From a virus, in the IMG/VR virus record IMGVR_UViG_3300025764_000008, positions 1-42,475 of that record: a stretch of DNA of 42,475 nucleotides, one strand, 5' to 3'. The position numbers and the translations under genes are program-made. This document shows positions 7,479-38,203 of this stretch, in pieces (within the stretch, counting starts at the first letter, position 1; each line of letters opens with the position of its first letter). The notes below the pieces were generated by a model, which saw nothing but the letters and a program-made list of their open reading frames with translations, did no database searches and was not told where the DNA came from.

Positions 7479-7576
7479 CGTCTCTCACCTAATCCTTTCC
7501 TAATCCCTTTTGATTTGTTGGCAGCACCGGGGATTAGGTCCGGGGTCATGCGGGTAATTAAACCGCATCAGCTGCC
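7479..7576 (-). ncRNA. structured RNA leader, copy C (nuclease-associated pseudoknot RNA)
   Basis: Reading the minus strand: P1 GGCAGC (7571-7576) with GCTGCC (7520-7525); P2 ATGCGG (7563-7568) with CCGCAT (7548-7553); P3 CCGG (7540-7543) with CCGG (7527-7530). The P3 loop ACCTAATCC (7531-7539) pairs with either of two tandem repeats, 7499-7507 and 7487-7495. The second covers the ribosome-binding region and lies 8 nt before the start at 7478. Copies A (31670) and B (35616) have the same plan with different bases, so the pairing is supported by compensatory change. Confidence 0.8.
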
Positions 7577-7582
7577 ACACTC

Positions 7583-7600
7583 AGTATATCACAAATGAAG
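7583..7600 (-). promoter_or_regulatory. promoter of copy C, CTTCAT-N6-TATACT
   Basis: CTTCAT (7595-7600), six bases, then TATACT (7583-7588), on the minus strand. P1 of the RNA begins 6 bases after the -10, so the transcript should start at or next to P1. The same arrangement occurs before copies A and B and before the late operon. Confidence 0.7.
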
Positions 7601-7720
7601 AGCAGCAGTACCGGAATGTGGAGGCGTCCGTTACCATTTATATACAATAATGGTAACCATCTGAAACGGACTTGTCCCCAAATGAATACCTTTTCGGGGA
7701 CGACCACACTTTTGCGGGGT

Positions 7721-7992: not shown

Positions 7993-8697
7993 TAATAGCG
8001 GGCCATCAAGTACCCGTCAAGTACCCCGCAACCTTAACTCAATTCAGGTATCTACCCCCATAACACGCCATAACCCCCATAAACCCCCATAACGCCAAAC
8101 GTGTGCCACGAATCGTGTTACGTTTTGTGCTCTTGTAGCATTATTCCAGTAGAATAATTCTGCAAGATAGCGCCGTTCTGCTCCATGAATACTAAGGTTT
8201 ATGCCTAAAGGTGGAACAGAACTACTCCACCCAGGGCCATCTGGAGTAGTATTGATGCAACGACTTGACACGGGGGCAGGCTACTGGGATATTATATCCG
8301 CTCTGGCTACGCTTTTGTCAACTATCCGCACAGAGGGATATGCGAGAGCCGGCCTATCGTAGCATCGGCTCCTGATCTCTTTGTGCTCGTGGCACATGAG
8401 TCTCAAACAAACATCGCGCATAGCAGGGAACTTGAACCCCAGCATTTCGGGCCGTTCGCCCCGCCTGGCTTGGTGCGCCCGATCCTTGCTTTGGAAGATA
8501 TGCGCGAGAGGTCAGTCCTGGCGGGGGCCGTTGCCTTAACCTGGCTGGCAAGTTATCGCTTCAGGCCGCTTGCCACTTGCGTCATGTCGATCATAGAACC
8601 ATGAACCAGGGTACTATTGTTGCTGGCTCGCTGGCCTGCCACGGAGGTCCCGTAGGTTGCGACCGTGGACTAAGTTGTAAAGAATTCGCTTATAACT
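7993..8697 (+). ncRNA. candidate large structured non-coding RNA
   Basis: No reading frame with a ribosome-binding site, yet helices follow one another: GCGGG/CCCGC about 7998-8029; AAACGT 8097-8102/ACGTTT 8120-8125 with inner CACG/CGTG; a 16-pair hairpin 8131-8146/8152-8167 (one mismatch, one G-U); GTTCTG 8175/CAGAAC 8217; ACTACTCCA 8221/TGGAGTAGT 8242; GAGCCG 8346/CGGCTC 8366; GCGCATA 8416/TATGCGC 8499 closing a branched domain; GGCAAG 8547/CTTGCC 8569; CCACGG 8639/CCGTGG 8663; and AGTTGTAA 8673/TTATAACT 8690 with one G-U. The G-U pairs fit a plus-strand RNA. Size and setting recall GOLLD/ROOL-type phage RNAs, but I could not identify the family. Confidence 0.45.
8265..8293 (+). promoter_or_regulatory. 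candidate promoter within the structured region
   Basis: Consensus TTGACA (8265-8270), 17 bases, GATATT (8288-8293), overlapping the palindrome GGATATTATATCC. It could make the second half (about 8300-8697) of the structured region as its own RNA. Confidence 0.45.
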
Positions 8698-10776: not shown

Positions 10777-11484
10777 CTATTTCTTGACGAGTGCGTTCTT
10801 GACCATTGCCAAAAGCTCGGCCACGGTCATCAGATGAAATACCGGTTTTGCTACAACTGGCTTGACCACTACTGGCGGCTTTGGCGGGATTATGGCGGGT
10901 TTGACAATCGGCTCCCAGGCCCCAAAGTCGAATTGCCGTGACTCGTTCAGATCCACCGTTGCACCCGCTACGACCTGCCCATTGTTGTATTGCAGGAAGT
11001 GGGTATGAGCGGATACCTTGCCCCCACTCCATCCGTAGGTCTGCCAGAACCACTGAGCGGTCTTGCTGGCATAGCAGCGTTCCACGACGTAATACGAGCC
11101 ATACACGCCGGTGCGACTGAGGCCGATGACACTTGCCACGCCTTTCAGGTATGCATCTACGGCTGGCTGCTGCCCTGCTGTGGCTGGAAAGTCCACGGCA
11201 AAGTAGATAGGACGTGTGTCTGGAAATCCGATAGCCCGAGCAAAGGCAAGCGCGATATGGCCGTCTGCAACGCCCGAACCCCAGCCCTCTCTTGCCCTTC
11301 CCGCATATTCCTCATAAACGACAACGAGCCCCAAACCCGCTTGGCGAATGGCAGTGGCTTCAGCTTTCGAAACGCCCTTTCCCCCCGGAGCTGGGGCAAA
11401 CAGGTAGCGAACCATGAACCCATAGCCCTCTTCCTTGACCTTGCGAGGGTCGGGACGCGAACCAGAATAATCGAGACCTTTCAT
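10777..11484 (-). CDS. endolysin, DUF1906 glycoside-hydrolase-like
   Basis: 235 residues. The first ~185 (MKGLDYSGSRPD, YGFMVRYLF, RPIYFAVDF, GVYGSYYVVERC, WFWQTYGWSGG, VDLNESRQFDFG) fit the DUF1906/Rv2525c TIM-barrel family related to GH25 muramidases, with Asp residues on strand ends. A Pro/Val-rich linker (KPAIIPPKPPVVVKPVV) leads to a short helical C-terminus instead of a known wall-binding domain. It should cut peptidoglycan. No signal peptide, so export needs a holin. ATGA overlap with the XhlA-like gene. Confidence 0.85.
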   Translation of the reverse strand: MKGLDYSGSRPDPRKVKEEGYGFMVRYLFAPAPGGKGVSKAEATAIRQAGLGLVVVYEEYAGRAREGWGSGVADGHIALAFARAIGFPDTRPIYFAVDFPATAGQQPAVDAYLKGVASVIGLSRTGVYGSYYVVERCYASKTAQWFWQTYGWSGGKVSAHTHFLQYNNGQVVAGATVDLNESRQFDFGAWEPIVKPAIIPPKPPVVVKPVVAKPVFHLMTVAELLAMVKNALVKK

Positions 11485-11972: not shown

Positions 11973-12853
11973 ACGCTCAGGTCATAACAGACAACGGAGT
12001 CGAGAAGGAATGATTCGCCAGCAACGACCGCATCAAAAACGAACGAGGGGTAGGCGTTGGTATTGTCGCTTAACCAAAACATACTTATCGTTTGGGCGGA
12101 CGCAGAGCAGTCCACCGCGATTCCGTTGACGTAGCCCGTATCCTTGCTCCCCTGTGCAAGCACCTTCCGGCCAGCCGCTGCCGTGGATTTTACCAACCCC
12201 CCAAAGTAGTAGACATGTCCCGCAATGATTGTTGTGGCGATATTTGCCGCATATGGCGTAGCGGTCGTTACCATTTTCAGCGACCCCGTACCAACAAGGG
12301 GCACACCCGTTTCCCTTGTAATGGTTCCACCAACCCATCCCGTCACGTCTGTCTCAAACTCTCCGTTCGTGATGAGGTTGGTAAGGGCTCCATGGCGGGC
12401 AAGAGCGGCTAGGAATAGCCCGTAATAATCTATCCCAAGCGTTGCTCTCTGTGCCGCTGCGTTGGCATCATTGATAAGTTCACGTCCAGCAGCAGTACAG
12501 TCTATCTCTTCAATCGCTCCCGCGCCCGCACTAGAGCGCCCTAACACCTTATCTGTGACAGAGACATTATCGGTTTTCTTTGCAGCGATACTGTCCGCTT
12601 CTGCCGCGCTGATGTCGTGAAAGATCACCGCACCATTCAGATGGGTAGCGGCAGTAGAACCCTCGTACCCTCTCGTCACCGTCCATGTAGTTGTGCTGAC
12701 TGTCGTGACCAGCATGGCCTCCGTATCAATGGAAATAATGAAGGGAGCGGTAGGAAAAGATGCCTCTGACGTAACGGTGATACTCGTACCGCCAGTATCG
12801 GTGATAGCTGCGGCTAAAGTTGTCTGTGAAAAGTTGCGATGATTTATTGCCAT
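11969..12853 (-). CDS. tail fibre or appendage with carbohydrate-binding-like C-terminus
   Basis: The start MAINHRNF at 12853 is chosen; the longer frame begins inside the upstream HNH gene. 294 residues: N-terminal beta-rich segment (SITVTSEASFPTAPF, TRGYEGSTAATH) common in phage tail appendages, a middle part with ADSIAAKKTDNV and NDANAAAQRATLG typical of fibre shafts, then NLITNGEFETDVTGW with TGSLKM, resembling CBM4/9-type jelly rolls. Likely binds host surface sugars. Start overlaps the HNH stop (TAATG). Confidence 0.75.
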   Translation of the reverse strand: MAINHRNFSQTTLAAAITDTGGTSITVTSEASFPTAPFIISIDTEAMLVTTVSTTTWTVTRGYEGSTAATHLNGAVIFHDISAAEADSIAAKKTDNVSVTDKVLGRSSAGAGAIEEIDCTAAGRELINDANAAAQRATLGIDYYGLFLAALARHGALTNLITNGEFETDVTGWVGGTITRETGVPLVGTGSLKMVTTATPYAANIATTIIAGHVYYFGGLVKSTAAAGRKVLAQGSKDTGYVNGIAVDCSASAQTISMFWLSDNTNAYPSFVFDAVVAGESFLLDSVVCYDLSV

Positions 12854-13347
12854 TATTCCACCCCCATATAAGCAAACGCGGCGGCATTTATAGCATCCAT
12901 ATTCTTGCCAGTCCAAACGTTATGACGGATACTTTGGTGTATATCCTTCGGGATATAAATGACTCGTTCTTTGTCAACGTGATGCCCCTCGCAACCCTCA
13001 AACGATTGGTTTAGGGCAACGTATCCCAAAACTCTGCGTTTAGCTTGGTGTTTTCTGAATATCTCACTTTTTCTGGCGGGATGTTTAATCCCCCACGCCA
13101 ACTCGTCTTGGAAATATGCACCTTCTCTGCATTTCGGACAATACTTATTGCATCTTCCTGTTGGGACAAACGCCTCCCCGCACATAAGGCACGCCTTTGG
13201 TTTATATCCCACCAACCGTGCCGTCCACCATTTCTTTATTTGCTGGCGATGTACTCCGGGAGCACAATCAACACAATATTTCTGGCATCTGCCAGTTGGC
13301 ACAAATGTCTCACCGCATATAGAACAATGTTTGGGAGTAAAAATCAC
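12853..13347 (-). CDS. HNH homing-type endonuclease with two zinc-finger-like repeats
   Basis: GTG start at 13347. The 164-residue protein has two N-terminal Cys repeats of the form CxxCGExFVPTGRCxKYCxxC (about 7-28 and 54-75), then a C-terminal HNH domain EGCEGHHVDKERVIYIPKDIH. That domain is clearly homologous to the C-termini of the NUMOD3 proteins at 31764 and 35710, so DNA-binding modules have been swapped around one nuclease core. It sits exactly between two tail genes with short overlaps and has no RNA leader of the A/B/C type. Confidence 0.9.
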   Translation of the reverse strand: MIFTPKHCSICGETFVPTGRCQKYCVDCAPGVHRQQIKKWWTARLVGYKPKACLMCGEAFVPTGRCNKYCPKCREGAYFQDELAWGIKHPARKSEIFRKHQAKRRVLGYVALNQSFEGCEGHHVDKERVIYIPKDIHQSIRHNVWTGKNMDAINAAAFAYMGVE

Positions 13348-15402: not shown

Positions 15403-16344
15403 TTAACCTACGTGTGTGAGTTGAAACCGACCGACCCAAGGAAAAGAGCGGACGACACTAATGGACGGGATTGTGATCCACTCTGCGGTGGCTGCCGCCG
15501 CGCTGCCATAGGCCACCGCTACAAATACTCCATTACCATGGGTGGCTGAAGACCAATATTTAATTGATGGCATGGTTTGAACTGCCCACGTACTGCCATC
15601 CAAAGATGACGCAGAATCTGTGCTGCTCCAAGATGTTGCCACAAACATTCCATCACTATAGGTAACTGAATACCAAGCCGCAGTTGACGGCATAGTTTGA
15701 GCCGTCCACGTAATTCCATCTGGAGAAGTTGCAGCGGTCATGTAGTGAGAGTAGGCCACCACCACAAACATGCCGCCACCATAGGTAACTGAGTACCATG
15801 CGGCACTTGACGGCATAGTTTGAGCCGTCCATGTGACACCATCTGGTGATGTTGCAGAAGTTGTGTTTCCATAGGCCACCGCGACAAATACTCCATTGCC
15901 ATAGGCGACCGAAGTCCAGTTTGCACTTACTGGTAACGTTTGAAGCGTCCACGTAGCGCCATCTGAAGATGTTGCAGCCATTGCGCTGCCCCACGCCACT
16001 GCTATAAACATGCCATTGCCATAGGAGACTGCTTGCCAGCCAGCACTTGCTGGTAGTGTTTGAGCCGTCCACGTAATTCCATCTGGAGATGTTGCAGCAA
16101 TCGCTCCATAGTAAGACACCGCCACAAACATTCCGTTACCATAAGTAACTGAAATCCAATTTGCACTTACCGGCAATGTCTGTGCAGTCCATACAATACC
16201 ATCCGGTGATGTTGCAGCTTTGTTGCTGCCGTAGGCTACCGTTACAAATACCCCATTGCCATAAGTAACAGAATACCAGTTTGCACTTGACGGTAGGGTC
16301 CGAGCCGTCCATATTAGACTCATGCCGCTACCTATTAAACTCAT
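15403..16344 (-). CDS. seven-repeat beta-propeller receptor-binding-like protein
   Basis: 313 residues with seven tandem repeats of about 40 residues, consensus WTAQTLPxSAxWxSVTYGN then GxFVAVAYGS and AATSPDGIT. Seven copies fit a seven-bladed beta-propeller (BNR/Asp-box-like, with SxDG). Such propellers bind sugars or surface proteins, and the position in the fibre cluster suggests host recognition. The start MSLIGSG is followed by a second MSLIW. The ~25 residues after the seventh repeat (ISVVRSFPWVGRF) lie outside the propeller. Confidence 0.8.
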   Translation of the reverse strand: MSLIGSGMSLIWTARTLPSSANWYSVTYGNGVFVTVAYGSNKAATSPDGIVWTAQTLPVSANWISVTYGNGMFVAVSYYGAIAATSPDGITWTAQTLPASAGWQAVSYGNGMFIAVAWGSAMAATSSDGATWTLQTLPVSANWTSVAYGNGVFVAVAYGNTTSATSPDGVTWTAQTMPSSAAWYSVTYGGGMFVVVAYSHYMTAATSPDGITWTAQTMPSTAAWYSVTYSDGMFVATSWSSTDSASSLDGSTWAVQTMPSIKYWSSATHGNGVFVAVAYGSAAAATAEWITIPSISVVRSFPWVGRFQLTHVG

Positions 16345-21950: not shown

Positions 21951-22396
21951 GGGCGAAGAAGCTCACGTGCCTGCGGGCTGATAAGCCCGCGTCGAGGAGC
22001 GTAGGTTTCATGAAGATCCCCGCGAGACGCACTTGTCACGCCTTGCTCCTGCAAGCGGATTCGCTCACTGTCTCCATGCTTCAACAGGGCTAGTGCTTCC
22101 TCACATACGGCATCCTTGACGCACTGGGGCGTGACGGTTCCCGTGATGGCGTCCATCTCGAGGGCGCTGCCCTCCCAGCCACCGTAGCGGTCCCCGCGAA
22201 TATAGTACGCACGAGGAAAAGCAGCAGTCTGTGTGGTCGTCGCACGGACACCGAGGAGCGGTAATGCATCGATGTCCGCCTGAGCCATCGTGAGCGCAGC
22301 GGTCTTTTCGGCTGGCGTCGCTGCCGTCCACTTCTCGGTATAGAGACGTGTCGAGAAATAAGCAGTAGCCTCCACAAGCGTTACGTACGCGCTCAT
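21917..22396 (-). CDS. head-tail connector (gp6/DnaT-like adaptor)
   Basis: 159 residues: VTLVEATAYFSTRLYTEKW, AALTMAQADIDALPLLG, AFPRAY, VTPQCVKDAVCEEALALL. The helical adaptor with FPR and a following helix matches the DnaT-like/gp6-type connector proteins that dock on the portal. It comes right after the head proteins. Confidence 0.75.
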   Translation of the reverse strand: MSAYVTLVEATAYFSTRLYTEKWTAATPAEKTAALTMAQADIDALPLLGVRATTTQTAAFPRAYYIRGDRYGGWEGSALEMDAITGTVTPQCVKDAVCEEALALLKHGDSERIRLQEQGVTSASRGDLHETYAPRRGLISPQARELLRPWLLGVVSLTT

Positions 22397-23336: not shown

Positions 23337-24335
23337 TTATGCAGACTTCATAACTGCAAACGGATAGCGAGTGGTTGAGGGGTCGGTCCCTTCTGAGTTA
23401 ACCCTGTTGATGGGGTTAGGGAGCTGCCAGCCAAGGCGCATCGTAATACGGAGGGCAACCATGTCTTGCTGACCAAGGTTGTAAAGGATTGAACCGTCTG
23501 CGGCCTGGATAACGCCCTCAGTCAGAAGCTTATAGGTCATGTCCTGACGAATGGAGTACACGGCCTGTTTCCAATCACCGGCGATAAGGAGCGCAGTGCC
23601 AACCGTCGCGCCATTGCGGACGTACTCAAGAGGCTGTCCGTAGAGTGATGCAGGAGTCCCTACCGTCATGGAAGGCTGGAAGATGAACGCGCCATCCGCA
23701 GAGCGGACGCCACGCAGAGAAGCCTTCATTGCGAGCGCAGCAACAAAACCGTTCACATCGTAACCGTCGGCTTCAACCAAGCTCATCAGCCCAGACTCAC
23801 CGCCGATGTCGTCAGCAAGGTCGCCGAGAGCACCCTTGACGATGTTATTCCCGACAGTCGTGGCAGCAGCCACGATACCATGCGGCCATGAAGTCGGATG
23901 GGCAACATCAAACATTGTGGCATTGTCGATCACGACGCCAAAAGCTTCCGCAGCCTTGTCCTTCATCTGGCTCCAAATGTCATATTTGGAATCAGCAAGG
24001 ACGTTTTCCGCGATGGGGATGATAACGGCGATTTCCTCTGCGGTGATCATCTTGTTCAGCCATGCCATGCTGGTTGACTGCTTGAGACCACTGTTAGTCC
24101 CGTCTCCGATTTCACCGGTTACAAAGTAAGCGGTGGGGAGAGCGGAGATGACGGGCATCGTCATGGTTGCTGAGGACATGTTCGGCAACTTTGTCGCAAG
24201 CGACATGAATGCCGACGCCTGTGACACAGCGCCGATAATGTCATTACGCGCTTCTACGGGAATGAGTACCGTAGCGTTCGGGCGCGAGATTAGAGCATCG
24301 TAAGTTGTCGTATTAGAGGTAACGGGAATTGCCAT
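23337..24335 (-). CDS. major capsid protein, HK97 fold
   Basis: 332 residues. The N-arm is short; the core starts IIGAVSQASAFMSLATKLPNM, with a TMPVISALPTAYFVTGE strand, AWLNKMITAEEIAVIIPI and a C-terminal VALRITMRLGWQLPNP typical of HK97-like capsids. It follows the scaffold gene with a strong site. It assembles the icosahedral shell. Confidence 0.9.
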   Translation of the reverse strand: MAIPVTSNTTTYDALISRPNATVLIPVEARNDIIGAVSQASAFMSLATKLPNMSSATMTMPVISALPTAYFVTGEIGDGTNSGLKQSTSMAWLNKMITAEEIAVIIPIAENVLADSKYDIWSQMKDKAAEAFGVVIDNATMFDVAHPTSWPHGIVAAATTVGNNIVKGALGDLADDIGGESGLMSLVEADGYDVNGFVAALAMKASLRGVRSADGAFIFQPSMTVGTPASLYGQPLEYVRNGATVGTALLIAGDWKQAVYSIRQDMTYKLLTEGVIQAADGSILYNLGQQDMVALRITMRLGWQLPNPINRVNSEGTDPSTTRYPFAVMKSA

Positions 24336-24861: not shown

Positions 24862-25713
24862 TCAAGCCTCCTTGGCTTCCGGGTTGGAGTTCCCGTTGTC
24901 TTCTACTTCCTGCGCCGCTTCTTCTTCGGTCAGCGGCTCTAACGTATGAACACAGTGACAGTGAAACACGCCATCTGCCTCTGCATCGTCAACTGTTGGA
25001 AAACCGGGCGTTGCGCCCGTGATGGAAAGAATCTGACCAGCCCACTGCGCACACGCTTCGCACGTGTTTTCACCGATCTCATCGCTCAGTTGGGCGAGAT
25101 CAAGGCCATCCGCCTGCATCTCTGACTTGATGCCGGTGTTATACGCCTTCATCACGCTCGACTGCGCCACCACGTCAACATACGTGTCCACCTTCCAAAC
25201 GTGCCCTGCCTTGTCGATGAATCCCGTCACACCGTTCTGCATCACGTCCTGCCGCAACTTCTCGGCAAGAGCCTGCCAGTCAGTAGCGTTCTTGAACGAC
25301 GCACCAGCAACGCCGACCTGTGCGGATGAGAGCAGCGTTGCCACGTTTCGGTCGACTGCCGCGCCGACGCTTGACAGCTTCTCCATGACGCCTACCGTAA
25401 GCGCCGCGATAATGGCGAGGTGCATGGGCGAAGACTCGGGGTGCGGACGGTTGAGTCGTTCACTCGCGTCCATCATTCCACGTGCGTAGAGCGTCGTCAG
25501 TGAATCATCAGACCAAGCTTGCGCCTGCTTTCCAGCATCGTCCATCAATTTTTGGATGGACTTTTTCGCTTTCAGCAGCGCCACAGCAGGCTGGGGGGCA
25601 AGAAGAGCCGCTGCCAGCAGGACAATCGCCGCATTCTCGGCGTCCTTGTAAATCTGTGTCAACCGCTTCCGGCGGCTTTCAGCGTCGTTAAGCAGTCTTG
25701 TCCGTCTGTCCAT
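24862..25713 (-). CDS. minor head protein, SPP1 gp7/MuF-like
   Basis: 283 residues, helical, with the C-terminal motif of this family: GENTCEACAQWAGQIL ... FHCHCVHTLEPL, i.e. CxxC and CHC metal-binding residues. Found next to portal genes, it is packaged and helps in DNA exit or assembly. It overlaps the portal gene by 26 bases. Confidence 0.85.
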   Translation of the reverse strand: MDRRTRLLNDAESRRKRLTQIYKDAENAAIVLLAAALLAPQPAVALLKAKKSIQKLMDDAGKQAQAWSDDSLTTLYARGMMDASERLNRPHPESSPMHLAIIAALTVGVMEKLSSVGAAVDRNVATLLSSAQVGVAGASFKNATDWQALAEKLRQDVMQNGVTGFIDKAGHVWKVDTYVDVVAQSSVMKAYNTGIKSEMQADGLDLAQLSDEIGENTCEACAQWAGQILSITGATPGFPTVDDAEADGVFHCHCVHTLEPLTEEEAAQEVEDNGNSNPEAKEA

Positions 25714-27124
25714 TCTTCAGAGCCGCACTCAGGCGGTCCGTAAGCGGCGCACTCTGGTCGGGAACGGCAGGAGCAGCGGCCTTCGCTGCGTCGGCTGCCT
25801 TCTGTTCATCCTCTCCAATGTTCTTCAATTCATCTTCGAGTGCTGTTCCACCCTTTTCAAGGGCCATGGATACGGCAGTCTTGATACTGATCAGTCCGGC
25901 GCCCTTCAGTGTGGAATAAACTGAAGCGTTTTCTGTCATGTCAACAGGGATGCCGTCTTGGAAGAAAATATGGACATCTTGTATCCCGAGTTCAACGGCA
26001 CCGTCAACCTTATTTGCCACAGCAAGGCGAGACGCCACACTGAGCGCCTGCCGAATTGCCGGCTCAAACTGCATCTTGAGACGGTTTACCTTGCGGAGAG
26101 TGGACATCAGGAGCCTCTTCATCATGCTCCCCGATTCCGCCCTGCCGAAGTCTCCGCCAAAAAGTGCGGGAGAGATACCCGTCAACTGGAACTTCTTCTC
26201 CTGCAAATCTGCCAGCTCCTTGAATGCTGCGTCCAACTGACCGCTCCACTCGACGTAAGCCACGTCCTCCCCAGGGTTCAGCGGCATGAACTTCCCAGAG
26301 GTAGGAACATGCGCGCGCCCCGAGGGGTCGACCGTCACCATCGACGCAGGCCCTTTGAGGTTTGGGCTGGAGTTCAAGTCAAGAACGTATTTGATCTGAG
26401 AAAGGCGGGACTCTTCTTCCTGACAGATGGAATCGATAATTGGATAATCAGAAAGGCCGAAGTAGCGGTCGGATGTCTGGACGTTGTGCACGGGGAAGAC
26501 AAGAAGCGCGTCGACGCCCGTTTCCTGCGTATCGTCTGCATGGACGATCTTGCGGATTTTTCCATCATCAGAAATCTCGTACAGCACGTGTTGAACGAAC
26601 CCCGGAGTGTGGGTTCTCGTGTCCAGATACCAGTGGTCGTCTTTCTTGTACTTATAACCGAGGACGCATCCCTGGATGTCTTTTATATCGGCAGGCGCAG
26701 CCCACGGCAGCCAGATTTCAGGAGAAGCCGTGTTGATGTGGACTTGCGTCCCGTCGAACCAGATATTAAACAGCCCATCGCCATACCTACTGACGTCGAT
26801 ACCGATCTCATACAGAACGTTGACGAGGCTCGTCTCCGCCACAAGACGGTCGAGAAACACCTGTTTTGCTGGATCAGCGGCAGTAAACTGGGGCGCCTCG
26901 CCAACCAGCAAATCCGGCCAGAGAGTAGAAATGAGTTGGTGAAAACCAAAGACCATCCAAATCTGTGCCCTCATCTCTGGACGAAGCGATTCGATGAACT
27001 CAGGGAAGACAAGGGCGTGCTCCCCGTCGAAGAGAGCGCGATTCCGGACATACTCGCCAAGGCGAGGCTTCTCTGAATCAGGCCAGAACTTGCTTCCAAT
27101 CTGCAATGGGTTTTGCGTTAACAC
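25688..27124 (-). CDS. portal protein
   Basis: 478 residues, GTG start after gaggtgaattt. It contains FIESLRPEMRAQIWMVFGFHQLISTLWPDLLVGE, a beta wing (YKKDDHWYLDTRTHTPGFVQHVLYE), SGSMMKRLLMSTLRKVNRLKM near the crown and an Ala-rich acidic C-terminus. Length and position between terminase and MuF-like gene fit an SPP1-type portal. Forms the 12-mer vertex for packaging. Confidence 0.85.
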   Translation of the reverse strand: MLTQNPLQIGSKFWPDSEKPRLGEYVRNRALFDGEHALVFPEFIESLRPEMRAQIWMVFGFHQLISTLWPDLLVGEAPQFTAADPAKQVFLDRLVAETSLVNVLYEIGIDVSRYGDGLFNIWFDGTQVHINTASPEIWLPWAAPADIKDIQGCVLGYKYKKDDHWYLDTRTHTPGFVQHVLYEISDDGKIRKIVHADDTQETGVDALLVFPVHNVQTSDRYFGLSDYPIIDSICQEEESRLSQIKYVLDLNSSPNLKGPASMVTVDPSGRAHVPTSGKFMPLNPGEDVAYVEWSGQLDAAFKELADLQEKKFQLTGISPALFGGDFGRAESGSMMKRLLMSTLRKVNRLKMQFEPAIRQALSVASRLAVANKVDGAVELGIQDVHIFFQDGIPVDMTENASVYSTLKGAGLISIKTAVSMALEKGGTALEDELKNIGEDEQKAADAAKAAAPAVPDQSAPLTDRLSAALKNGQTDKTA

Positions 27125-27138
27125 AAATTCACCTCAAA

Positions 27139-28611
27139 TTACCAACCCGAAGGTTTGTCCGGGAGATTGGTCCATCTTCCGCCTGTCGCCACCGTTTCGG
27201 CAAAACCGGTCACAAAATCTGCCGCATCATCATGCCTGTTGCGCCCCATTTTTAAGTGATGCGTCAGTTCAGCCATAAACCGTGAGTAATCAGAACCCTT
27301 GTCATAGTCGGTTCTGAACCACATGTGACGCATAACCCACTCAGACCAACTCAGGATTCGAGTTTCCTTGTTCGATGTCGTCTGACGATCTGCCACGGAA
27401 CAAGGAAACCCTATCCTGCCAAGCATCTCTCGCAAATTTGAGGCATAGAGCCGCCCACCGTTATTACTCTCCACGGTTAAGAGCACACAATGCTCCGCGA
27501 CCGCCTTATTCACAACCTGCGGCTTAGTCACGTCCATGTCGTCCGTCGTAAACACCACATCCGTCAGATACCAATCCTCGCCGATGTTCTTCCCATATCC
27601 TCCGGCGAGAGAGTCAGAACCTTTGTCTGCCGTATCTACGTACCCCCGGCAAGTCGACCGTGCCAATTCTTCTTTTTTCTGCTTCAAAGCAAACGTGTGC
27701 ATTTCCTCAAACGGGTAGAGCAGCCCTTCCTTCTCAATCGGCTCCTGCTGGTACTCTGCTTGAAAGATGAAGTCGGGCATGTTCAATTGCATATCAATGA
27801 TTGTCGGCGTGGAGAGTATCTCTTCGCAGGTGCTCGCTTCATCGCGCATAGCGGGGAGGCGATATCGTTCGTAGTCCTCAGGGGCAGACTCGATGATCTT
27901 TCTTCCGATGATGTCTCTGTTCGACCAACGGGTGCCAAGGAACAACTCCGGGCATCGAACGCCATCTCTTTCCTCTTCTCGGGTATAAAATGTGGAATTA
28001 TACCATAACCAATCGCGGTCCAGTTTCAGTTCAGACAGAGCATCGTCGATCCCCTTAATCTGGTCGTCGATCATCGCCAGTCCGCTTGCACCCTTGCCTG
28101 TGAACACGCCGCCCACGCCGGAACAGAAATACGAAGAAGTAACCGCCCCAACAACTGCCCAATCTGCCACGGCTTGATGGTCCAGTTGAAGGTGAATATC
28201 GGGGAAGACAAGCAGATACTTGTCGGATTTGACGAACCCCATCACCTGCTTCGATAATGTCTCTGCAAGGTCGGCGCCGTACGACGCCCGCATGACCGAA
28301 TCCGTAGACCGTAAACCGATGTTCCACGCCGAAAGAAGCGACGCGGAGAGCGACTTCTTAAACCTCGGAGGCATTGTTATAATTGCCCCTTTTCTCCCCG
28401 ATCTCCGCTCCACACACCGCTGCATCAGACCGCAGACGTCCCGCAAATATGTCCACCGATCCAGATACGCCCCAGGCACCATGTACTGACAGAAATTGTA
28501 AAAAGAAGAAGTAACTGCTTCTCGAAGTTCCGCACGACGGTCTATTTCCCGCTTTGCCTGTTCAGCCAGCGCATCTTCGAGGGTGAGGGTTAGCGCCACT
28601 CTATGCCTCAA
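27139..28611 (-). CDS. terminase large subunit
   Basis: About 490 residues. ATPase: [17 protein letters not shown] (Walker A), [10 protein letters not shown] (Walker B), LFLGTRW (coupling). Nuclease: [23 protein letters not shown] and [13 protein letters not shown] acidic residues of the RNase H-like fold. It packages and cuts DNA. Start uncertain: TTG 28611 overlaps the HNH gene, while GTG 28599, seven bases after gagg, gives [11 protein letters not shown] and is equally likely. The HNH gene lies between small and large subunits. Confidence 0.92.
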
Positions 28612-29673: not shown

Positions 29674-29675
29674 GA

Positions 29676-29744
29676 CTATCGGGCCTCGCCCGAAGGTCCG
29701 GCCCGAAGAGCCACGCGCAGTTGCCTAAGCTGCCTTTCGCCCAT
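29676..29744 (-). CDS. 22-codon leader peptide before the terminase
   Basis: ATG at 29744 after ggggtgaaagc encodes MGERQLRQLRVALRAGPSGEAR and stops 2 bases before the terminase ATG. The last codons form a CGGGCC/GGCCCG hairpin that would hide the terminase start unless ribosomes translate the leader. A role in translational coupling is inferred. The longer overlapping frame up to 30128 looks non-coding. Confidence 0.5.
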   Translation of the reverse strand: MGERQLRQLRVALRAGPSGEAR

Positions 29745-29899
29745 GCTTTCACCCCTATATTTATGCGGGCTGCCCGCCCCTATGCCCGCATTGCCCCTGT
29801 ACGAACGGAGGATTCTGCCCAGAACCCCTTTCGGGCCGCCGTACAGCCACCTTCTCATAAAGGACCCCGGTGCACGCGGCAACTCACGGGGTACGATTG
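29745..29899 (-). promoter_or_regulatory. structured 5' leader of the late operon
   Basis: Transcripts from the promoter at 29905-29922 would begin near 29898 and fold at once: ACCCCG/CGGGGT (29864-29869 with 29887-29892 on the plus map), then TGTACG/CGTACA (29798-29803 with 29840-29845) enclosing a GGCCCG-rich arm, then a perfect 8-bp stem ATGCGGGC/GCCCGCAT (29763-29770 with 29784-29791). A motif CCCCTRT (plus strand) recurs several times. It could serve antitermination, mRNA stability or packaging-site functions. Confidence 0.5.
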
Positions 29900-29904
29900 A
29901 TATA

Positions 29905-29922
29905 AGAATACGCAATATGAAG
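29905..29922 (-). promoter_or_regulatory. late operon promoter, CTTCAT-N6-TATTCT
   Basis: On the minus strand, CTTCAT (29917-29922) precedes TATTCT (29905-29910) by exactly six bases, as in the promoters of nuclease copies A, B and C. It is the only match found upstream of the ~21-kb late operon. The missing -35 and fixed box at about -24 suggest a phage-encoded activator or sigma factor. Confidence 0.6.
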
Positions 29923-30560
29923 ACCAGTGGTGTAATTCGGAAGGTGAAGAAAATAAGAAGAGAAGATTTGAAGAACAGAAAATTGTAGGATTTTTTCCGC
30001 TTGCCCCTGTCGACCGGGTGCCCCTGGGGCTTACACCCCCCCCCTGGCGTGCCTGGATCACCCCCGTTTACCCCTATCGCCGCTCCCCGACTACCCTTGC
30101 ATTTATATCGATACGCGTTGATGTGCATAAATGATGGTTATCGGAAGTCGAACAACCCACGCCAAGACGCTCGGACCTATTACAGTAATCAAGATTACCG
30201 TAGCACACGACACGGGCAACACAGAGCACAGAACACAGTCCACAACACATGATATAGGGAAAGTACACAGAAGAGATACCACAGGGGCAACGAAGGCGAA
30301 GCGTTGCATGTTTGCTGTACATCGCCCTATATAGTGTTGTCTACCGCCAGTTTAAGAAACTTTTTTCGCACCGTTTTACATTGTCCTATACATAGGTATG
30401 AAAAGCCCCTCAATCCCGCATCAATGCTGCATTCTTCTCTTTACCCATGCGACACGTGACGACATATGCCACTAGTCCTTGTTGTAGACTTGTTCTTCAG
30501 TCTTTTATGCCCTCTTTATACGGTAATAGTGATGATTTTTGACCCCTTTCTTCACATTGT
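29923..30560. other. gene-free divergent control region
   Basis: No convincing gene on either strand. 29990-30100 is C/G-rich with repeated CCCCTRT-like blocks. A palindrome CCTATACATAGG lies at 30385-30396. A weak minus-strand promoter could be GTTTAA (30350-30355) with TATATA (30328-30333), 16 bases apart. Short frames here have no ribosome-binding sites. Confidence 0.5.
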
Positions 30561-30611: not shown

Positions 30612-30757
30612 ACCGCGCTTTCAAATAGCATCGATAGCCTGAGGCTACCAGAAGATGCGCCAAAGCAGCACCCAGGAGCGAGTATAGGTGGATGTCCGGC
30701 GCTCCTGACTGTTCTAAAACAAACCGCCATAGATTGAAGCTGTGGCGCTGTGGTTAT
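30598..30757 (+). ncRNA. structured leader released by the hammerhead
   Basis: Three hairpins lie between promoter and ribozyme: GCATC/GATGC (30628-30632 with 30654-30658) with inner TAGCC/GGCTA (30635-30647); CAGGAGCG/CGCTCCTG, 8 bp (30673-30680 with 30700-30707); CGCCATAG/CTGTGGCG with one U-G pair (30725-30732 with 30740-30747). Cleavage at 30808 would free this ~210-nt segment from the mRNA, so it may be a functional RNA. Confidence 0.45.
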
Positions 30758-30813
30758 ACTGCCTGATGAGGCTCTGAAGAGCCGAAACAAGGCACCTGGT
30801 GCCTTGTAGCAGT
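30758..30813 (+). ncRNA. type I hammerhead ribozyme
   Basis: All conserved core bases are present. Stem I ACTGC (30758-30762) with GCAGT (30809-30813); CTGATGA core 30763-30769; stem II GGCTC/GAGCC (30770-30774 with 30779-30783), loop TGAA; GAA core 30784-30786; stem III nine pairs from A30787-T30807, loop CTG; cleavage base A30808 (GUA). It opens at stem I, hence type I. Self-cleavage after 30808 would set the 5' end of the early mRNA 41 nt before the start codon at 30850. Confidence 0.93.
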
Positions 30814-30820
30814 GAGAACG

Positions 30821-31626: not shown

Positions 31627-31646
31627 ATGTCGCCACAACCATTGGC

Positions 31647-31664
31647 CTTCATATCGTTTATAAT
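31647..31664 (+). promoter_or_regulatory. promoter of copy A, CTTCAT-N6-TATAAT
   Basis: CTTCAT (31647-31652), six bases, TATAAT (31659-31664). P1 of the RNA begins five bases later, at the expected start point. Same as copies B and C and the late operon promoter. Confidence 0.7.
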
Positions 31665-31669
31665 TGATA

Positions 31670-31763
31670 GGTGGCTAAGACAGCCTTATAAACTGTCTGA
31701 ATTCCAGACTCCCTTCTGGTGCCACCACAGTCAAAACAAGGGAGATAAAGGGAGTGTGAGACA
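31670..31763 (+). ncRNA. structured RNA leader, copy A (nuclease-associated pseudoknot RNA)
   Basis: P1 GGTGGC (31670-31675) with GCCACC (31721-31726); P2 AGACAG (31678-31683) with CTGTCT (31693-31698); P3 CCAG (31704-31707) with CTGG (31716-31719). The P3 loop ACTCCCTT (31708-31715) matches AAGGGAG at 31738-31744 and, with one more pair, AAGGGAGT at 31748-31755. The second repeat is the ribosome-binding site of the gene at 31764. Base changes against copies B and C keep every helix. Confidence 0.85.
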
Positions 31764-32282
31764 ATGAGACTTGGACAGCACTGTTCAGACGAAACAAAAG
31801 CAAAGATGTCTGCGGCGGCCAGGGGAAATAAGAGATCGCTGGGACATCATAATTCAGAAGAAACCCGAGCAAAGATGTCGGTGGCACAAAAGGGTAAGCC
31901 AAAACCGCATAAAGGAGTTCCGCACTCAGACGCAACGAAGGCAAAGCTATCTGCGATAAACATGGGCCTTAAGGCGTCTCCTGAAATGCGGGCTAACAAT
32001 TCCGTGGCGCATTGGAAGGGAGGCCCTGCGGTGTATCGCCGCAAGGCCAACGCTAAGCGTCGGGTTTTCGGTTATGTATGTCTCAACGCCACCTTTGCGG
32101 GCTGCCAAGGGCATCACGTAGACAACGAGCAGGTTATTTTTATGCCGAAAGAACTTCATCGTAGCATCTTCCATCGTCAGTCAGACGGTCGAGGCATGGC
32201 GCAGATGAACGCTCTCGCTTATGCTTTTATGCTTGAACAAAATGCAGACGTTGCAATTGCCGGAAGAGCACTCATTCTATGA
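31764..32282 (+). CDS. NUMOD3-HNH homing endonuclease A
   Basis: 172 residues. About four N-terminal NUMOD3 DNA-binding repeats (SDETKAKMSAAARG, SEETRAKMSVAQKG, SDATKAKLSAINMG and one degenerate, ending WKGG), then the HNH core RRVFGYVCLNATFAGCQGHHVDNEQVIFMPKELHRSIFHRQ. It would cut a target lacking the insertion so that the gene is copied by repair. Its translation is probably gated by the leader RNA. It shares its nuclease core with the genes at 12853 and 35710. Confidence 0.9.
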   Translation: MRLGQHCSDETKAKMSAAARGNKRSLGHHNSEETRAKMSVAQKGKPKPHKGVPHSDATKAKLSAINMGLKASPEMRANNSVAHWKGGPAVYRRKANAKRRVFGYVCLNATFAGCQGHHVDNEQVIFMPKELHRSIFHRQSDGRGMAQMNALAYAFMLEQNADVAIAGRALIL

Positions 32283-33125: not shown

Positions 33126-33146
33126 GAGTTCCTTCACCCCGTTCCT

Positions 33147-33165
33147 CTTCATCTTGTGTTAAACT
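33147..33165 (+). promoter_or_regulatory. possible CTTCAT-type promoter before the methyltransferase
   Basis: tCCTCTTCAT with CTTCAT at 33147-33152, then TAAACT at 33160-33165 seven bases later. The upstream bases resemble those of copies B and C (TGCTCTTCAT). The -10 is weak, so this is a tentative member of the class. Confidence 0.4.
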
Positions 33166-33193: not shown

Positions 33194-33919
33194 ATGGGCA
33201 TTGATTTGGGCATGAGTAGCGTTATTTGTGGCGATAGTCTTGATTTGATGTATCGGCTCAAACAGATTCCCCCTGAATCGGTTGACCTTCTCTTGACTGA
33301 CCCTCCGTATTGGACGTTGAACAAGTGGCGCGACGTTGGCACAACAACGCGACTTGGTGGCAATCACGACAAGAGCAAGCAGACCGGCTGGTTCACAACG
33401 ATTGATGAACAAGAGCTGTTCGAGTTCATGTGTTCTGCCTGCAAAGTCCTGAAACCCGACCGTCATGCCGTCATCTTCTGTGATGGTCAGACGTTGAAGT
33501 GGGTACTGGGCTACGCAGAAGAGGCTGGATTCAGCTACTATAAGCCTCTGGTATGGGATAAGCTGGCTCCAGGGATGGGGTACCACTTCAGAAACCAGTG
33601 TGAGTTCATGGTGCTGTTGGACAAGGGCAGGAATCGTCATCCGCACAACCTTGGAATGCCGGACGTGTTTCGTTTCAGCCCCGTGCGCGGCGGGTATCCG
33701 ACTGAAAAGCCAGTGCTGCTCATGGAGATGCTGATTGAACAACTAACCGAGCCAGGGGAACTCGTACTTGACCCGTTCTGTGGTTCAGGTGCCGTCTGCG
33801 TGGCGGCAAGAGATTGTGGACGCGAGTATATGGGAATTGACATCAGTGAGGAAGCCATAGCTTTGACGAACAAGCGACTGGCCGCGCCCATTGAAGGCAA
33901 TTTGTTCGAAGCAGCCTGA
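33194..33919 (+). CDS. DNA methyltransferase 2, N6-adenine/N4-cytosine type
   Basis: 241 residues with LLLTDPPYW (motif IV, DPPY near 34-37) and later LVLDPFCGSGAVCVAA (motif I), again in the beta order. It is only distantly similar to the enzyme at 731, and has IFCDGQTLKWVLGY between. Start follows aggaggcatggt, the best predicted target of the candidate sRNA. It ends one base into the helicase start. Likely protects phage DNA or works with the SNF2-like helicase. Confidence 0.9.
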   Translation: MGIDLGMSSVICGDSLDLMYRLKQIPPESVDLLLTDPPYWTLNKWRDVGTTTRLGGNHDKSKQTGWFTTIDEQELFEFMCSACKVLKPDRHAVIFCDGQTLKWVLGYAEEAGFSYYKPLVWDKLAPGMGYHFRNQCEFMVLLDKGRNRHPHNLGMPDVFRFSPVRGGYPTEKPVLLMEMLIEQLTEPGELVLDPFCGSGAVCVAARDCGREYMGIDISEEAIALTNKRLAAPIEGNLFEAA

Positions 33920-35634
33920 TGGATAACGTCATCGCTCGTTTTTCTTCTTCTCAAATAATCATACAAGCCCCTTTCAGCGACTTGGACACCTTGCGTTCTG
34001 TCCCCGGCTTGTCCTGGTCGAAGCCGAACAGGGCGTGGTGTGGAGATCTTTCGCCTTCTCTTGCTCAATCTCTCCTCCAGACTTTCAAGGGGCGCCTGTT
34101 GTGCAACGACGTTCCCCGCCTCAAAGCTTTAGCGGAACAGTCCGGCGAGACCGCCCGCCTCAAAGCTATGGGCGCGGATCTTCCCGATGTTCCGAACGCC
34201 CGCCTTGCTCCGTGGCCTCACCAGAAACTGGAATATTGGGCGATGGTTAAACAGCCGGCGCTCCTTGCATACCTCGGCCTTGGCACAGGTAAGACTGCGC
34301 CCGTAGTGTGGTATGTGCAGAATATGCACGTACTTCGTACGCTCGTTGTCTGTCCTCTTTCTGTCATCAATGTCTGGCTGTCGGAGTTTCAGAAACACGC
34401 AACGACGCCGGTAACGATTTGGCATCAGCATAAACTGTTTCCCGCTCCTAGTGGAATTATTGTCGTACCACTGGATAAAGGAAGCGTTACGCAGAAGAAT
34501 CAGACGATGATGGACGCTCTTACTTATGACGGCCTCGTTGTCATTGTTGTGAACTACGAGAGCGCGTGGAGACCGCCGCTTTCATCGTCTCTTTCTAAAT
34601 GGGGCTTTGACCTCTTGGTTATGGACGAGGGCCACAAGTTGCAGTCTCCCGGTTCCCGCGTTTCCAAGTATTTCCATTCGCTGGGCAAGACTGTCGCCAA
34701 GAGAGTTGCTCTGACCGGCACACCTTGTCCAAATGGTCCCTTGACAATTTATGGCCTCTACCGGGCACTGGACAGCGGCGTCTTTGGTACGTCGTTCGCT
34801 GTGTTCCGTGAGAAATACGCAATCATGGGCGGGTATATGCAGCATGAGATCATAGGATATAAGAACGTCGAGGAGTACAATCGGCGGTTCTATTCCATCG
34901 CCATCCACGCCGATCGCTCTGTCCTGACCCTCCCGGAAGCAACAACGATTCCGCGCACCTCTATTCTTTCTCCATCTGCGATGAAGACGTACCGCTCTTT
35001 GGAGAAAGATCTGGTAGCGCAGATTCAAAATGGTACGGTGACTGCGGCCAACGGGCTTGTGAAGCTTTTGCGCCTTTCTCAACTGACGGGAGGCTGGCTT
35101 TCTCCTGACGAGGATATTTACAACCCCGACAGAAAACCGCAGCGCGTGGACAGTGCGAAGCAAGAACTGCTTGCAGATGTACTGGATGATCTGCCGAAAG
35201 AAGAGCCTGTCGTTGTGTTCTACAAATATGTCCAGGACGCGGTTTCTATCCGTGAGGTCTGTAAAGAGCAAGGGCGGACGTATTCTGAATTGTCTGGCCG
35301 CGTGAACGAGCTGGCGGAGTGGCAGAAGAGTGGACAAGTGCTCGCCGCACAGATCGCGTCTGGCAGCGTTGGTGTAGACATGACGCGAAGTTGTTACGCG
35401 ATCTATTACAGTGCGACCTTTTCTCTGAGCGATTATGAGCAATCCCTTGCTCGTATTCATCGTCCGGGGCAAGATCGTGCGGTTACGTATATCGATTTGG
35501 TGATGTCCGGAACCGTCGATGATAAAATATATGCAGCACTTGCAAACAAGAAGAACGTTGTTGAAGCAATCTTGAAGGAACTCACGCCTGCTCTTCATTC
35601 AGAGTATAATGAAATGGCAGCTAGGGCGGCTTAA
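33919..35634 (+). CDS. SNF2/SF2-type helicase
   Basis: 571 residues: an N-terminal ~100-residue HARP/SMARCAL-like part (IIIQAPFSDLDTLRSVPGLSW), then GLGTGKT (120-126, Walker A), LVMDEGHKLQS (motif II), ALTGTPCPNG (III), and the second RecA domain with PVVVFYKYVQDA, SVGVDMTRSCYAIYYSATFS and QSLARIHRPGQ (VI). Typical of phage SNF2-like annealing or remodelling helicases. Its last codons (MAARAA) contain P1 and part of P2 of the RNA of copy B, so the element has fused with the gene end. Confidence 0.9.
   Translation: MDNVIARFSSSQIIIQAPFSDLDTLRSVPGLSWSKPNRAWCGDLSPSLAQSLLQTFKGRLLCNDVPRLKALAEQSGETARLKAMGADLPDVPNARLAPWPHQKLEYWAMVKQPALLAYLGLGTGKTAPVVWYVQNMHVLRTLVVCPLSVINVWLSEFQKHATTPVTIWHQHKLFPAPSGIIVVPLDKGSVTQKNQTMMDALTYDGLVVIVVNYESAWRPPLSSSLSKWGFDLLVMDEGHKLQSPGSRVSKYFHSLGKTVAKRVALTGTPCPNGPLTIYGLYRALDSGVFGTSFAVFREKYAIMGGYMQHEIIGYKNVEEYNRRFYSIAIHADRSVLTLPEATTIPRTSILSPSAMKTYRSLEKDLVAQIQNGTVTAANGLVKLLRLSQLTGGWLSPDEDIYNPDRKPQRVDSAKQELLADVLDDLPKEEPVVVFYKYVQDAVSIREVCKEQGRTYSELSGRVNELAEWQKSGQVLAAQIASGSVGVDMTRSCYAIYYSATFSLSDYEQSLARIHRPGQDRAVTYIDLVMSGTVDDKIYAALANKKNVVEAILKELTPALHSEYNEMAARAA
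35593..35610 (+). promoter_or_regulatory. promoter of copy B, CTTCAT-N6-TATAAT, inside the helicase gene
   Basis: CTTCAT (35593-35598), six bases, TATAAT (35605-35610), then P1 after five bases. The promoter also encodes LHSEYNE of the helicase, so it is under double constraint yet keeps the motif. Confidence 0.7.
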
Positions 35635-35709
35635 TTACCCGTCTGAAATCCAGACTCGCCTCTGGTGCTGCCACAATCAGAACAGGCGAGAAAGGCGAGT
35701 GTGAGACAA
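35616..35709 (+). ncRNA. structured RNA leader, copy B (nuclease-associated pseudoknot RNA)
   Basis: P1 GGCAGC (35616-35621) with GCTGCC (35667-35672); P2 GGGCGG (35624-35629) with CCGTCT (35639-35644, two G-U); P3 CCAG (35650-35653) with CTGG (35662-35665). The P3 loop ACTCGCCT (35654-35661) matches AGGCGAG at 35684-35690 and, with one more pair, AGGCGAGT at 35693-35700. The helicase stop codon lies in the P2 loop. ATG follows at 35710. Confidence 0.85.
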
Positions 35710-36393
35710 ATGGGTTATGGACATCCGCAGTCAGAAGAAACCAGAGCAAAAATATCTTTAGCGTGTACAGGGAAACCTGCATGGAATATGGGCATCTCGC
35801 CAACAATTGAGGTACGAGTGAAACTTTCTGCTGCATTAAGGGGAAGGCCTGCCCCAAATAAGGGCATTCCCATGACAGACGAACAAAAGGCGAGAATGTC
35901 TGCTGCGCATCAGAACCAGTCTTCTGAAACCAGAGCAAGGAACTCTGCGGGGCACCTTGGGAAGAAACATTCGCCCGAGACATGTGCAAAAATCTCCGCG
36001 GCAAAGATGGGGCACGAAGTTTCTCTTGAAACGCGGGCGGGTGTATCTGCGGCGCATAAAGGGAAACGCCTTTCTCTTGAGACAAGGGCGAAGATGTCTG
36101 CTGCGAATTGGAAGGGCGGTCCCAAAATATCTAGTGCCAAGAAGAATTCCAAGCGTCGCACTTTTGGATTTGTTGCCCTGAACTCGTGGTTTTCTGGTTG
36201 CGAAGGACATCACGTAGACAAAGAACGAGTTATATATCTTCCAAAAGCATTGCACCGAAGTGTTTATCATCGTCAGACTGATGCCCGTGGAATGGCTAAA
36301 ATGAATGCAATCGCATACAACTGGCTATTCAAGCAGGAAGTCGAAACAGTAATGATGGCAAAGGAGGCTACAAATGTTCAAGAGGTTGCTTGA
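35710..36393 (+). CDS. NUMOD3-HNH homing endonuclease B
   Basis: Start MGYGHPQSEETRAK at 35710, at the same place relative to the RNA as in copy A; the frame open from 35665 runs through the RNA. 227 residues with about seven NUMOD3 repeats (SEETRAKISLACTGK, TIEVRVKLSAALRG, TDEQKARMSAAHQ, SSETRARNSAGHLGK, SPETCAKISAAKMG, SLETRAGVSAAHKGK, SLETRAKMSAANWKGG), then RRTFGFVALNSWFSGCEGHHVDKERVIYLPKALHRSVYHRQ. More repeats than copy A, so probably a longer recognition site. Confidence 0.9.
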   Translation: MGYGHPQSEETRAKISLACTGKPAWNMGISPTIEVRVKLSAALRGRPAPNKGIPMTDEQKARMSAAHQNQSSETRARNSAGHLGKKHSPETCAKISAAKMGHEVSLETRAGVSAAHKGKRLSLETRAKMSAANWKGGPKISSAKKNSKRRTFGFVALNSWFSGCEGHHVDKERVIYLPKALHRSVYHRQTDARGMAKMNAIAYNWLFKQEVETVMMAKEATNVQEVA

Positions 36394-37224: not shown

Positions 37225-37532
37225 GTGATGAGATTGACAAGAAGTTTTTTGAGAGATGGAACAAAATGAAGGCGTGGACTGATGCGGGAAAGGATTTATT
37301 TGATATGAATGCTGAAACAAGGATGAACGACCGAATTGGCGATTTCACCGTTGATACAAATGACACTTGTGACGCGGGTTGGGAAACCGGGATTGTCAAC
37401 GAGAAAGATGGTGGCATTTCTGTTGTGGAAAACTATGAGACACAAGGAGAGGCGGCTATTGGACATCAAAAATGGATGGAGAAAGTAAAGAAGGGATTGA
37501 CGGCAGAAGATCTCGCAGGAGGTGACGCATGA
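37221..37532 (+). CDS. acidic early protein
   Basis: 103 residues, GTG start overlapping the previous stop. Acidic and helical at both ends (DEIDKKFFERWNKMKAWTDAGK; QKWMEKVKKGLTAEDLAGG). No family recognised. Directly behind the glycyl-radical gene, so it may work with it (inference from position only). Confidence 0.6.
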   Translation: MSDEIDKKFFERWNKMKAWTDAGKDLFDMNAETRMNDRIGDFTVDTNDTCDAGWETGIVNEKDGGISVVENYETQGEAAIGHQKWMEKVKKGLTAEDLAGGDA

Positions 37533-37891
37533 TTGATTTCAGGACTTCAACGGATTGTAAAACGGTCATCACGTGGCAAGGCGAGCACTGTGAAGCGGTT
37601 GTGGACATCGGCACCGTCGATGCGACGTCTGCCGTTCAGCTGAAACTTCTTATTCAAAAACTCGGCCTTTATCCAAAAATCAATTTGGAGTTCAACGAGT
37701 ACAAGAATGCGATCGTTCAGTGGCGGAGTTCTGTTGTAGGAGAACATGCCCCCTTGGGCCGAGCGCCCGTAGTCCGTGATCTTTTCATCGAAAGGGCCCT
37801 GGAATACGTGGCTTGGCTTCAGGACGACATCGCCGCCTACAATCACCATTGTGCCATCATGGAGACGTCGGAAGAAGCGAAGGCGGCGTAA
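37529..37891 (+). CDS. hypothetical early protein
   Basis: 120 residues, ATGA overlap with the previous gene, site ggaggtgacgc. It begins with beta strands (FRTSTDCKTVITWQGEHCEAVVDIG) and ends in helices (VRDLFIERALEYVAWLQDDI) and KAA. Family not recognised. A promoter for the next operon follows at once. Confidence 0.6.
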   Translation: MIDFRTSTDCKTVITWQGEHCEAVVDIGTVDATSAVQLKLLIQKLGLYPKINLEFNEYKNAIVQWRSSVVGEHAPLGRAPVVRDLFIERALEYVAWLQDDIAAYNHHCAIMETSEEAKAA

Positions 37892-37948: not shown

Positions 37949-38203
37949 ATGGTGAACAGCAATTTGCTGGCAGATGTAACAAAGTGGCGCGAGCAACACC
38001 CGCTGGTTGTCTATCTCCGCGAGAGCGGAATGACGCAGACGGATTTGGCAGTGCTGCTTGGCGTGACACGCAGCGCCGTCGGCCAATGGCTGACGGGCGG
38101 GAGAATGAGGGAAGAATACGCCGCGCAGATGGAGAAGCTGGACAAAGGATTTTCCGATAAACTGACAGTGTGGCGAGCGGAATCGCCACTAAAACGTAAG
38201 TAA
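37949..38203 (+). CDS. Cro/XRE-type helix-turn-helix regulator
   Basis: 84 residues; site gggaggtga. A clear HTH: SGMTQTDLAVLLGVTRSAVG then QWLTGG (about residues 27-50). The short basic tail (SPLKRK) could add DNA contacts. It heads the primase operon with its own promoter, like Cro or a replication-control protein. It may bind the ATCACT repeats at 30527-30611; this is a guess. Confidence 0.85.
   Translation: MVNSNLLADVTKWREQHPLVVYLRESGMTQTDLAVLLGVTRSAVGQWLTGGRMREEYAAQMEKLDKGFSDKLTVWRAESPLKRK

Follow-up and report, generated by a model that had tools for sequence, protein, structure and literature searches.

A candidate post-early promoter class at the late operon and nuclease units of an uncultured tailed phage lineage

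T4-type late promoters consist of an 8-bp TATAAATA as their sole element, with no -35. The middle promoters of T4 combine a sigma70 -10 with a phage-specific box in place of the -35 and serve a post-early set of genes, and this MotA box, (a/t)(a/t)(a/t)TGCTTtA, is centred at -30 and lies 12 +/- 1 bp from the -10 (PMC2988021). Mor of phage Mu is described as binding inverted repeats centred at -43.5 (PMC4390567). Nuclease genes are also drawn into such programmes, and in T4 they are found behind middle and late promoters together with leader structures (PMC2988022). Here we describe a promoter class, marked by CTTCAT and a normal -10, that may represent a further arrangement of this kind.

The DNA analysed here (the window), a virus record, is 42,475 bases long and 11.6% noncoding. 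Genes for structure and packaging are read leftward between about 29.7 and 9 kb and include those for the terminase (27139-28611), portal (25688-27124), major head protein (23337-24335) and endolysin (10777-11484). Those for replication and modification point rightward and extend from 30.8 kb to the window end, with more at 0.2-5.7 kb; minus-strand open reading frames at 42.0-42.4 kb were judged spurious. Terminase searches gathered about ten related contigs, two of which (G004 and G006) do not differ from the window anywhere along their own length and so carry no independent information. Among the others are G005, a 9.2 kb contig with a terminase at 92%, and G007, a 45 kb contig with a terminase 71% identical, and together with the window these make three independent phages with the exact box, a small number. 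No relative was found among the bacterial genomes scanned with the terminase, and named phages gave no DNA-level match to the window and terminases of less than 40% identity. Several features of the window stand apart from its promoters. Seven tandem copies of a ~120-nt repeat occupy 15506-16319, within a minus-strand open reading frame of the structural region (15403-16344), and probably code for a domain that recurs within a tail or surface protein. A noncoding stretch at 8142-8545 shows ~84-91% conservation in G002 and G007 and, for part of its length, in G012, much more than the flanking DNA does; it perhaps has a replication or partition role, and a ParA gene is close by (6063-6821). At 30755-30820 (plus strand), in the leader of the early operon, there is a hammerhead ribozyme (Rfam Hammerhead_3, 26.5 bits, under the gathering score), whose core CTGATGAG...CGAAAC is kept in related contigs and whose stem III varies in sequence with its pairing preserved.

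The earlier note on this DNA had proposed that CTTCAT, exactly six bases and a -10 box define a promoter class, and all four exact sites that it listed are present, at 31647-31664 and 35593-35610 on the plus strand and 7583-7600 and 29905-29922 on the minus strand, as is a looser one at 33147-33165 (CTTCAT-N7-TAAACT). Three of them precede nuclease units: promoter A (31636-31664, plus; box CAACCATTGGCCTTCAT, N6, TATAAT), promoter B (35582-35610, plus; box TCACGCCTGCTCTTCAT, N6, TATAAT) and promoter C (7583-7611, minus; box GTACTGCTGCTCTTCAT, N6, TATACT). Promoter D heads the late operon (29905-29933, minus; box ACACCACTGGTCTTCAT at 29917-29933, N6, TATTCT at 29905-29910), and promoter E (33136-33165, plus; box ACCCCGTTCCTCTTCAT, N7, TAAACT), with a second CTTCA at about -40, lies ahead of genes for a DNA methyltransferase (33194-33919, plus) and an SNF2-type helicase (33919-35634, plus). 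The stretch TGCTCTTCAT is common to B and C, while D reads TGGTCTTCAT. CTTCAT does sit near -24, where a box had been placed, but the element is not limited to it: the full box is 17 nt long (consensus NCMCCRYTGSTCTTCAT), spans about -35 to -19, includes TGSTCTTCAT as its -28 to -19 part, and is followed by 6-7 nt and the -10. The ordinary -35 is indeed missing, with a best match of 1-3 of six positions at 15-18 nt for all five sites and likewise for a nuclease promoter in G005, so that a TTGACA-like -35 at 16-18 bp is found at none of them. The early genes of the window, by comparison, have TTGACA-N16-TATTCT at 30564 (plus) and 6884 (minus), and a normal -10 without such a -35 suggests a host polymerase working with a factor that reads the region from -35 to -19.

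Dinucleotide shuffles predict 0.2 occurrences of the fixed pattern, and five were found. This count is not decisive, because the pattern was chosen after looking and, when hexamer and spacer (3-19) are left free, the best count is at least 4 in 19 of 60 random windows. What places the motif beyond chance is its location at gene or unit starts and the larger shared box, together with its recurrence in relatives. There are 39 copies of CTTCAT in the window, and of the five that have a TA...T box (at least 4 of 6 matches) at 6-7 nt, four are intergenic and the fifth marks the boundary of an inserted nuclease unit, in a window of which only 11.6% is noncoding (Fisher p about 0.001-0.004); the motif is thus not as common in coding sequence as upstream of genes, the outcome that would have spoken against the proposal. 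A scan of the whole window recovered the promoter-position sites and also one intragenic match that the earlier note had not listed (21998-22015, minus), which has a low weight-matrix score. With a matrix covering -35 to -19 and the -10, the five sites score 26-32 bits, the next site in the window 15.8 and the best of five random windows 18.4, a gap that is only indicative as the matrix was trained on the same five sites and two from G005, which inflates their scores; in G007 only D and E exceed background. Among the papers of the library searched, none contains CTTCAT as a separate word alongside both promoter and phage.

The poor -35, usable -10 and extra upstream sites of this class are shared with the activator-dependent late or middle promoters of Mu Mor/C, P2 Ogr and phi29 p4. 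The T4-type late element TATAAATA is absent, the -10 boxes being TATAAT, TATACT, TATTCT and TAAACT. Unlike the Mor sites (PMC4390567), the box here lies at -35 to -19 and has no dyad. The likeness to T4 MotA/AsiA promoters is greater, since there too a normal -10 is kept, a box replaces the -35 and post-early genes are served (PMC2988021), and sigma appropriation by MotA/AsiA may be the nearest mechanistic analogue. The two nevertheless differ in the sequence and position of the box, which here ends in CTTCAT 6-7 bp from the -10 rather than lying 12 +/- 1 bp away, with no TGCTT near -30, and for this reason we do not file the class as a member of the MotA/AsiA group.

Comparison of relatives shows where the class is kept and where it changes. 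Promoter D reads CTTCAT-N6-TATTCT in G005 and CTTCAT-N6-TATCCT in G007. The late promoter position is still recognisable in G003, in G008/G009/G012 and in G010/G013, where the -24 part has diverged to CTCACG, CTGCAA and CTTCAC, respectively; the left part of the box, ACACCRYTGSTCT, is kept in G003 and in G008/G009/G012. CTTCAT is therefore not essential across the family, given the CTCACG and CTGCAA readings. Promoter E is conserved in G005 and G007 (CTTCAC) and diverged in G012. Late control of the nucleases had been suggested, but "late" is too narrow a term: because E heads the methyltransferase and helicase operon and is conserved there, "post-early" is safer. The nuclease genes would then be expressed together with both operons, the late one and that of the methyltransferase and helicase, after the early phase.

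In the reading that we consider the most probable, with moderate confidence, these promoters form a lineage-specific, activator-dependent, post-early class that nuclease genes have captured. A host-type RNA polymerase would use the normal -10, and the 17-nt box would stand in for the -35 and be read by a putative factor, most likely a phage-encoded activator made early. Some 50 open reading frames, part of the small ones among them, were scanned against Pfam and/or PHROGs and gave no MotA, AsiA or sigma-factor hit, and the candidate regulator frames had no sigma or known activator domain. A small XRE-type helix-turn-helix protein (37949-38203, plus; HTH_3 2.2e-6; XRE-type fold in an AlphaFold model) is a weak candidate with weak Sigma70_r4 matches below cut-off. 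As the reader of the box it is not supported, since its similarity across relatives does not follow the box: the window and G013 share the recognition helix but not the box, and G007 has the box of the window with another helix. The AlphaFold model of the product of 37529-37891 had no significant fold match and nothing sigma-like, its best matches being secretion-chaperone and YbjN-like entries. The lack of a phage regulator among the scanned frames would fit a promoter type that the host itself uses, through a host activator or an alternative sigma factor, and that the phage has borrowed, and the normal -10 indicates that the host holoenzyme reads the promoter. We regard this as unlikely, if the most credible of the alternatives, in that the -24 part has changed in relatives with similar late regions, which a co-evolving phage factor explains more easily; hosts that differ among the relatives could weaken that argument.

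Further copies of CTTCA lie upstream of promoter D (29945-29973, minus), at about -51 (29945-29949) and about -75 (29969-29973), and a copy at about -62 reads CTTCT in the window. CTTCA is found at -51, -62 and -75 in G007, G010 and G013, at -51 and -62 in G005 and G003, and at -63 and -77 in G008 and G012. The expected number is ~0.2 per 130 nt genome-wide and 0.2-0.6 from local composition (p 0.0007-0.10), and such clusters are rare elsewhere in the genomes of the relatives. The letters between the copies differ from relative to relative while the positions stay fixed, and such constant spacing of repeats speaks more for an activator that binds DNA than for a sigma factor by itself. The copies also adjoin the terminase genes and lie in a C/T-rich tract, where the local-composition p reaches 0.10, and they could be packaging sites bound by the terminase small subunit or simply a pyrimidine-rich tract. 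We find this slightly more doubtful than a host promoter type, as the spacers vary around copies that hold their places, and as it leaves sites E, A, B, C and the nuclease site of G005 unexplained. Downstream of D, the 5' leader of the late operon (29674-29898, minus) contains strongly conserved, hairpin-forming stretches in an alignment of eight relatives (GGTGGCTGTACGGCGGC ... TTCTGGGCAGAATCC ... GTACAGGGGCA); it gave no convincing Rfam match and could be a regulatory or antitermination RNA.

The three nuclease units each consist of promoter, RNA leader and gene. Nuclease A (31764-32282, plus; PF07460 1.3e-17, phrog_314) has NUMOD3 repeats and an HNH-like C-terminal region and, judged by these domains, would be of the homing-endonuclease type. 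Nuclease B (35710-36393, plus; PF07460 5.9e-20) is NUMOD3/HNH-like and ~48% identical to A, and nuclease C (7014-7478, minus; PF02945 2.8e-24) belongs to the endonuclease VII family, so that one leader is common to unrelated nucleases. The box and insert of unit B are absent from the helicase 3' ends of relatives. An inverted repeat at 7628-7663 (GTTACCATT...AATGGTAAC), immediately upstream of unit C and present in G002 too, resembles an operator or origin element. The late operon contains another HNH-type nuclease gene (12853-13347, minus), which is related in its C-terminal part to A and B; neither leader nor box was detected there. G005 has three sites, at the late operon, at the E orthologue on the contig end and at a non-orthologous nuclease site (CTTCATTTCCACTATAAT; CTTCAT-N6-TATAAT) directly before an HNH nuclease gene. 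The gene lacks the RNA leader, and the window has no equivalent of it at this position. It (L092 1889-2437) adjoins the late promoter on the upstream side and has a box-type promoter to itself, along with a copy of the G/C-rich tract found ahead of the late promoter.

The leaders of A (31670-31763, plus; P1 GGTGGC/GCCACC, P2 and P3), B (35616-35709, plus) and C (7479-7576, minus) are ~100 nt long and fold into three stems, P1 and two hairpins. Two repeats follow downstream in succession, both complementary to the loop of P3, and the second occupies the Shine-Dalgarno position; loop and both repeats vary in concert between units, as judged by eye and with an exact-match detector requiring two repeats. 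A search of Rfam 15 gave no match to the nuclease leaders at E up to 5, and no gathering-level match anywhere in the window. It is possible that the leader is an alternative-pairing switch common to unrelated nuclease genes. Eight further leader units were found in other viral contigs, and such units occur in L170, L171, L172, L177, L089 and L090. A start at P1 had been predicted, and in all 11 leader units compared the -10 sits 5-6 nt before P1, which places the predicted transcript start at the first G of P1 (position 7576 in unit C). As with I-TevI, segB and mobE of T4/Aeh1, the nuclease would be tied to a late or middle phage programme and RNA structure lies at the ribosome-binding site (PMC2988022). 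T4 late transcripts contain too little sequence to form the inhibitory structure (PMC2988022), unlike the transcripts predicted here, which would include the whole structure.

Elsewhere these units have a different promoter. In 8 of 8 leader units from other contigs, TTG lies exactly 16 nt from the -10 (TTGACT, TTGCAT, TTGTAT, TTGATT or TTGCAC), mostly with TG before the -10, and none has CTTCAT, so that CTTCAT as a property of the nuclease units was rejected. The nuclease promoters of this lineage (A, B, C and that of G005) have CTTCAT-N6 in four of four and TTG at 16 nt in none, an exclusivity (4/4 vs 0/8) with a Fisher p of 0.002 among units that are not fully independent and with a G005 nuclease that has no leader. 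Leader C is 95% identical to a leader in G001, and leader B 87% identical to that of L177a; the 60 nt upstream are unrelated in both cases, at background levels (55% and 53%), and BLAST similarity of unit C stops at 7579, just short of the -10. Leaders that match ordinary-promoter units next to unrelated upstream DNA indicate that the promoters were replaced. B and C are only 64-65% identical, each being closer to some ordinary-promoter unit in another phage, from which it appears that replacement probably happened more than once and the class was acquired at least twice. The leader unit of G012, a member of the same family with a diverged late box, keeps the ordinary promoter, and three ordinary units already read CATCAT or TCTCAT at the place of the box, part of which could thus arise by few mutations.

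Searches of viral contigs did not bear out CTTCAT-N6-TATAAT as a widespread phage promoter: 81 viral stretches match it together with GGNNGC, and the downstream sequence holds the leader only in the near-identical contig L030, while 21 other nuclease-bearing viral contigs yield three matches of a looser pattern, none with TATAAT. With box and -10 in common at D, A, B and C, the proposed sharing of one class by the late operon and the nuclease units is supported, and the class is specific to the phage lineage rather than to units that elsewhere have ordinary -35/-10 promoters. The units would be candidates for homing genes under phage control, with their nuclease domains, with B lacking at the helicase 3' end of relatives, and with a promoter class that D and E share. 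That the box is instead an operator through which the nucleases repress themselves, or a preferred insertion site, has a precedent in I-TevI, which binds to an operator that overlaps the late promoter of its own gene (PMC2988022), and a nuclease gene adjoins the late promoter in G005; we consider it very improbable, as the box precedes unrelated nucleases of the NUMOD3/HNH and endonuclease VII types and is kept at D and E in G007, with no nuclease there. Least probable of all is a motif picked post hoc plus one promoter inherited by three units, for despite the frequency of comparable counts in random windows, the five sites stand clear of background, G005 has a new non-orthologous site, and the nearest relatives of B and of C are different units, both with ordinary promoters.

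Under the activator-dependent reading, nuclease units would arrive as a leader RNA and nuclease gene with an ordinary promoter, which in this lineage would be swapped for the phage class so that the units join the phage expression programme, their transcripts still starting at the first G of the leader. The unit would probably benefit by having its expression synchronised with that of the phage, as in T4, and, unlike the T4/Aeh1 cases, the switch is visible here by comparison between phages. More tentatively, and as something we would not expect to hold in full, a new phage factor may replace the sigma region 4 contacts at the -35 to -19 box and also bind the CTTCA repeats of the late promoter (about -51, -62 and -75), with mobile nuclease cassettes that carry a new pseudoknotted leader repeatedly swapping their promoter for the class of the phage they invade.

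For this uncultured tailed phage family, the sites provide a concrete, testable promoter code, and they draw attention to a regulator that merits a search and to an RNA leader of no known class, common to unrelated nucleases. They also offer a comparative case in which selfish nuclease genes appear to have been rewired to the regulatory programme of a new phage, where nearly the same RNA leader follows an ordinary promoter in one phage and a phage-class promoter in another.
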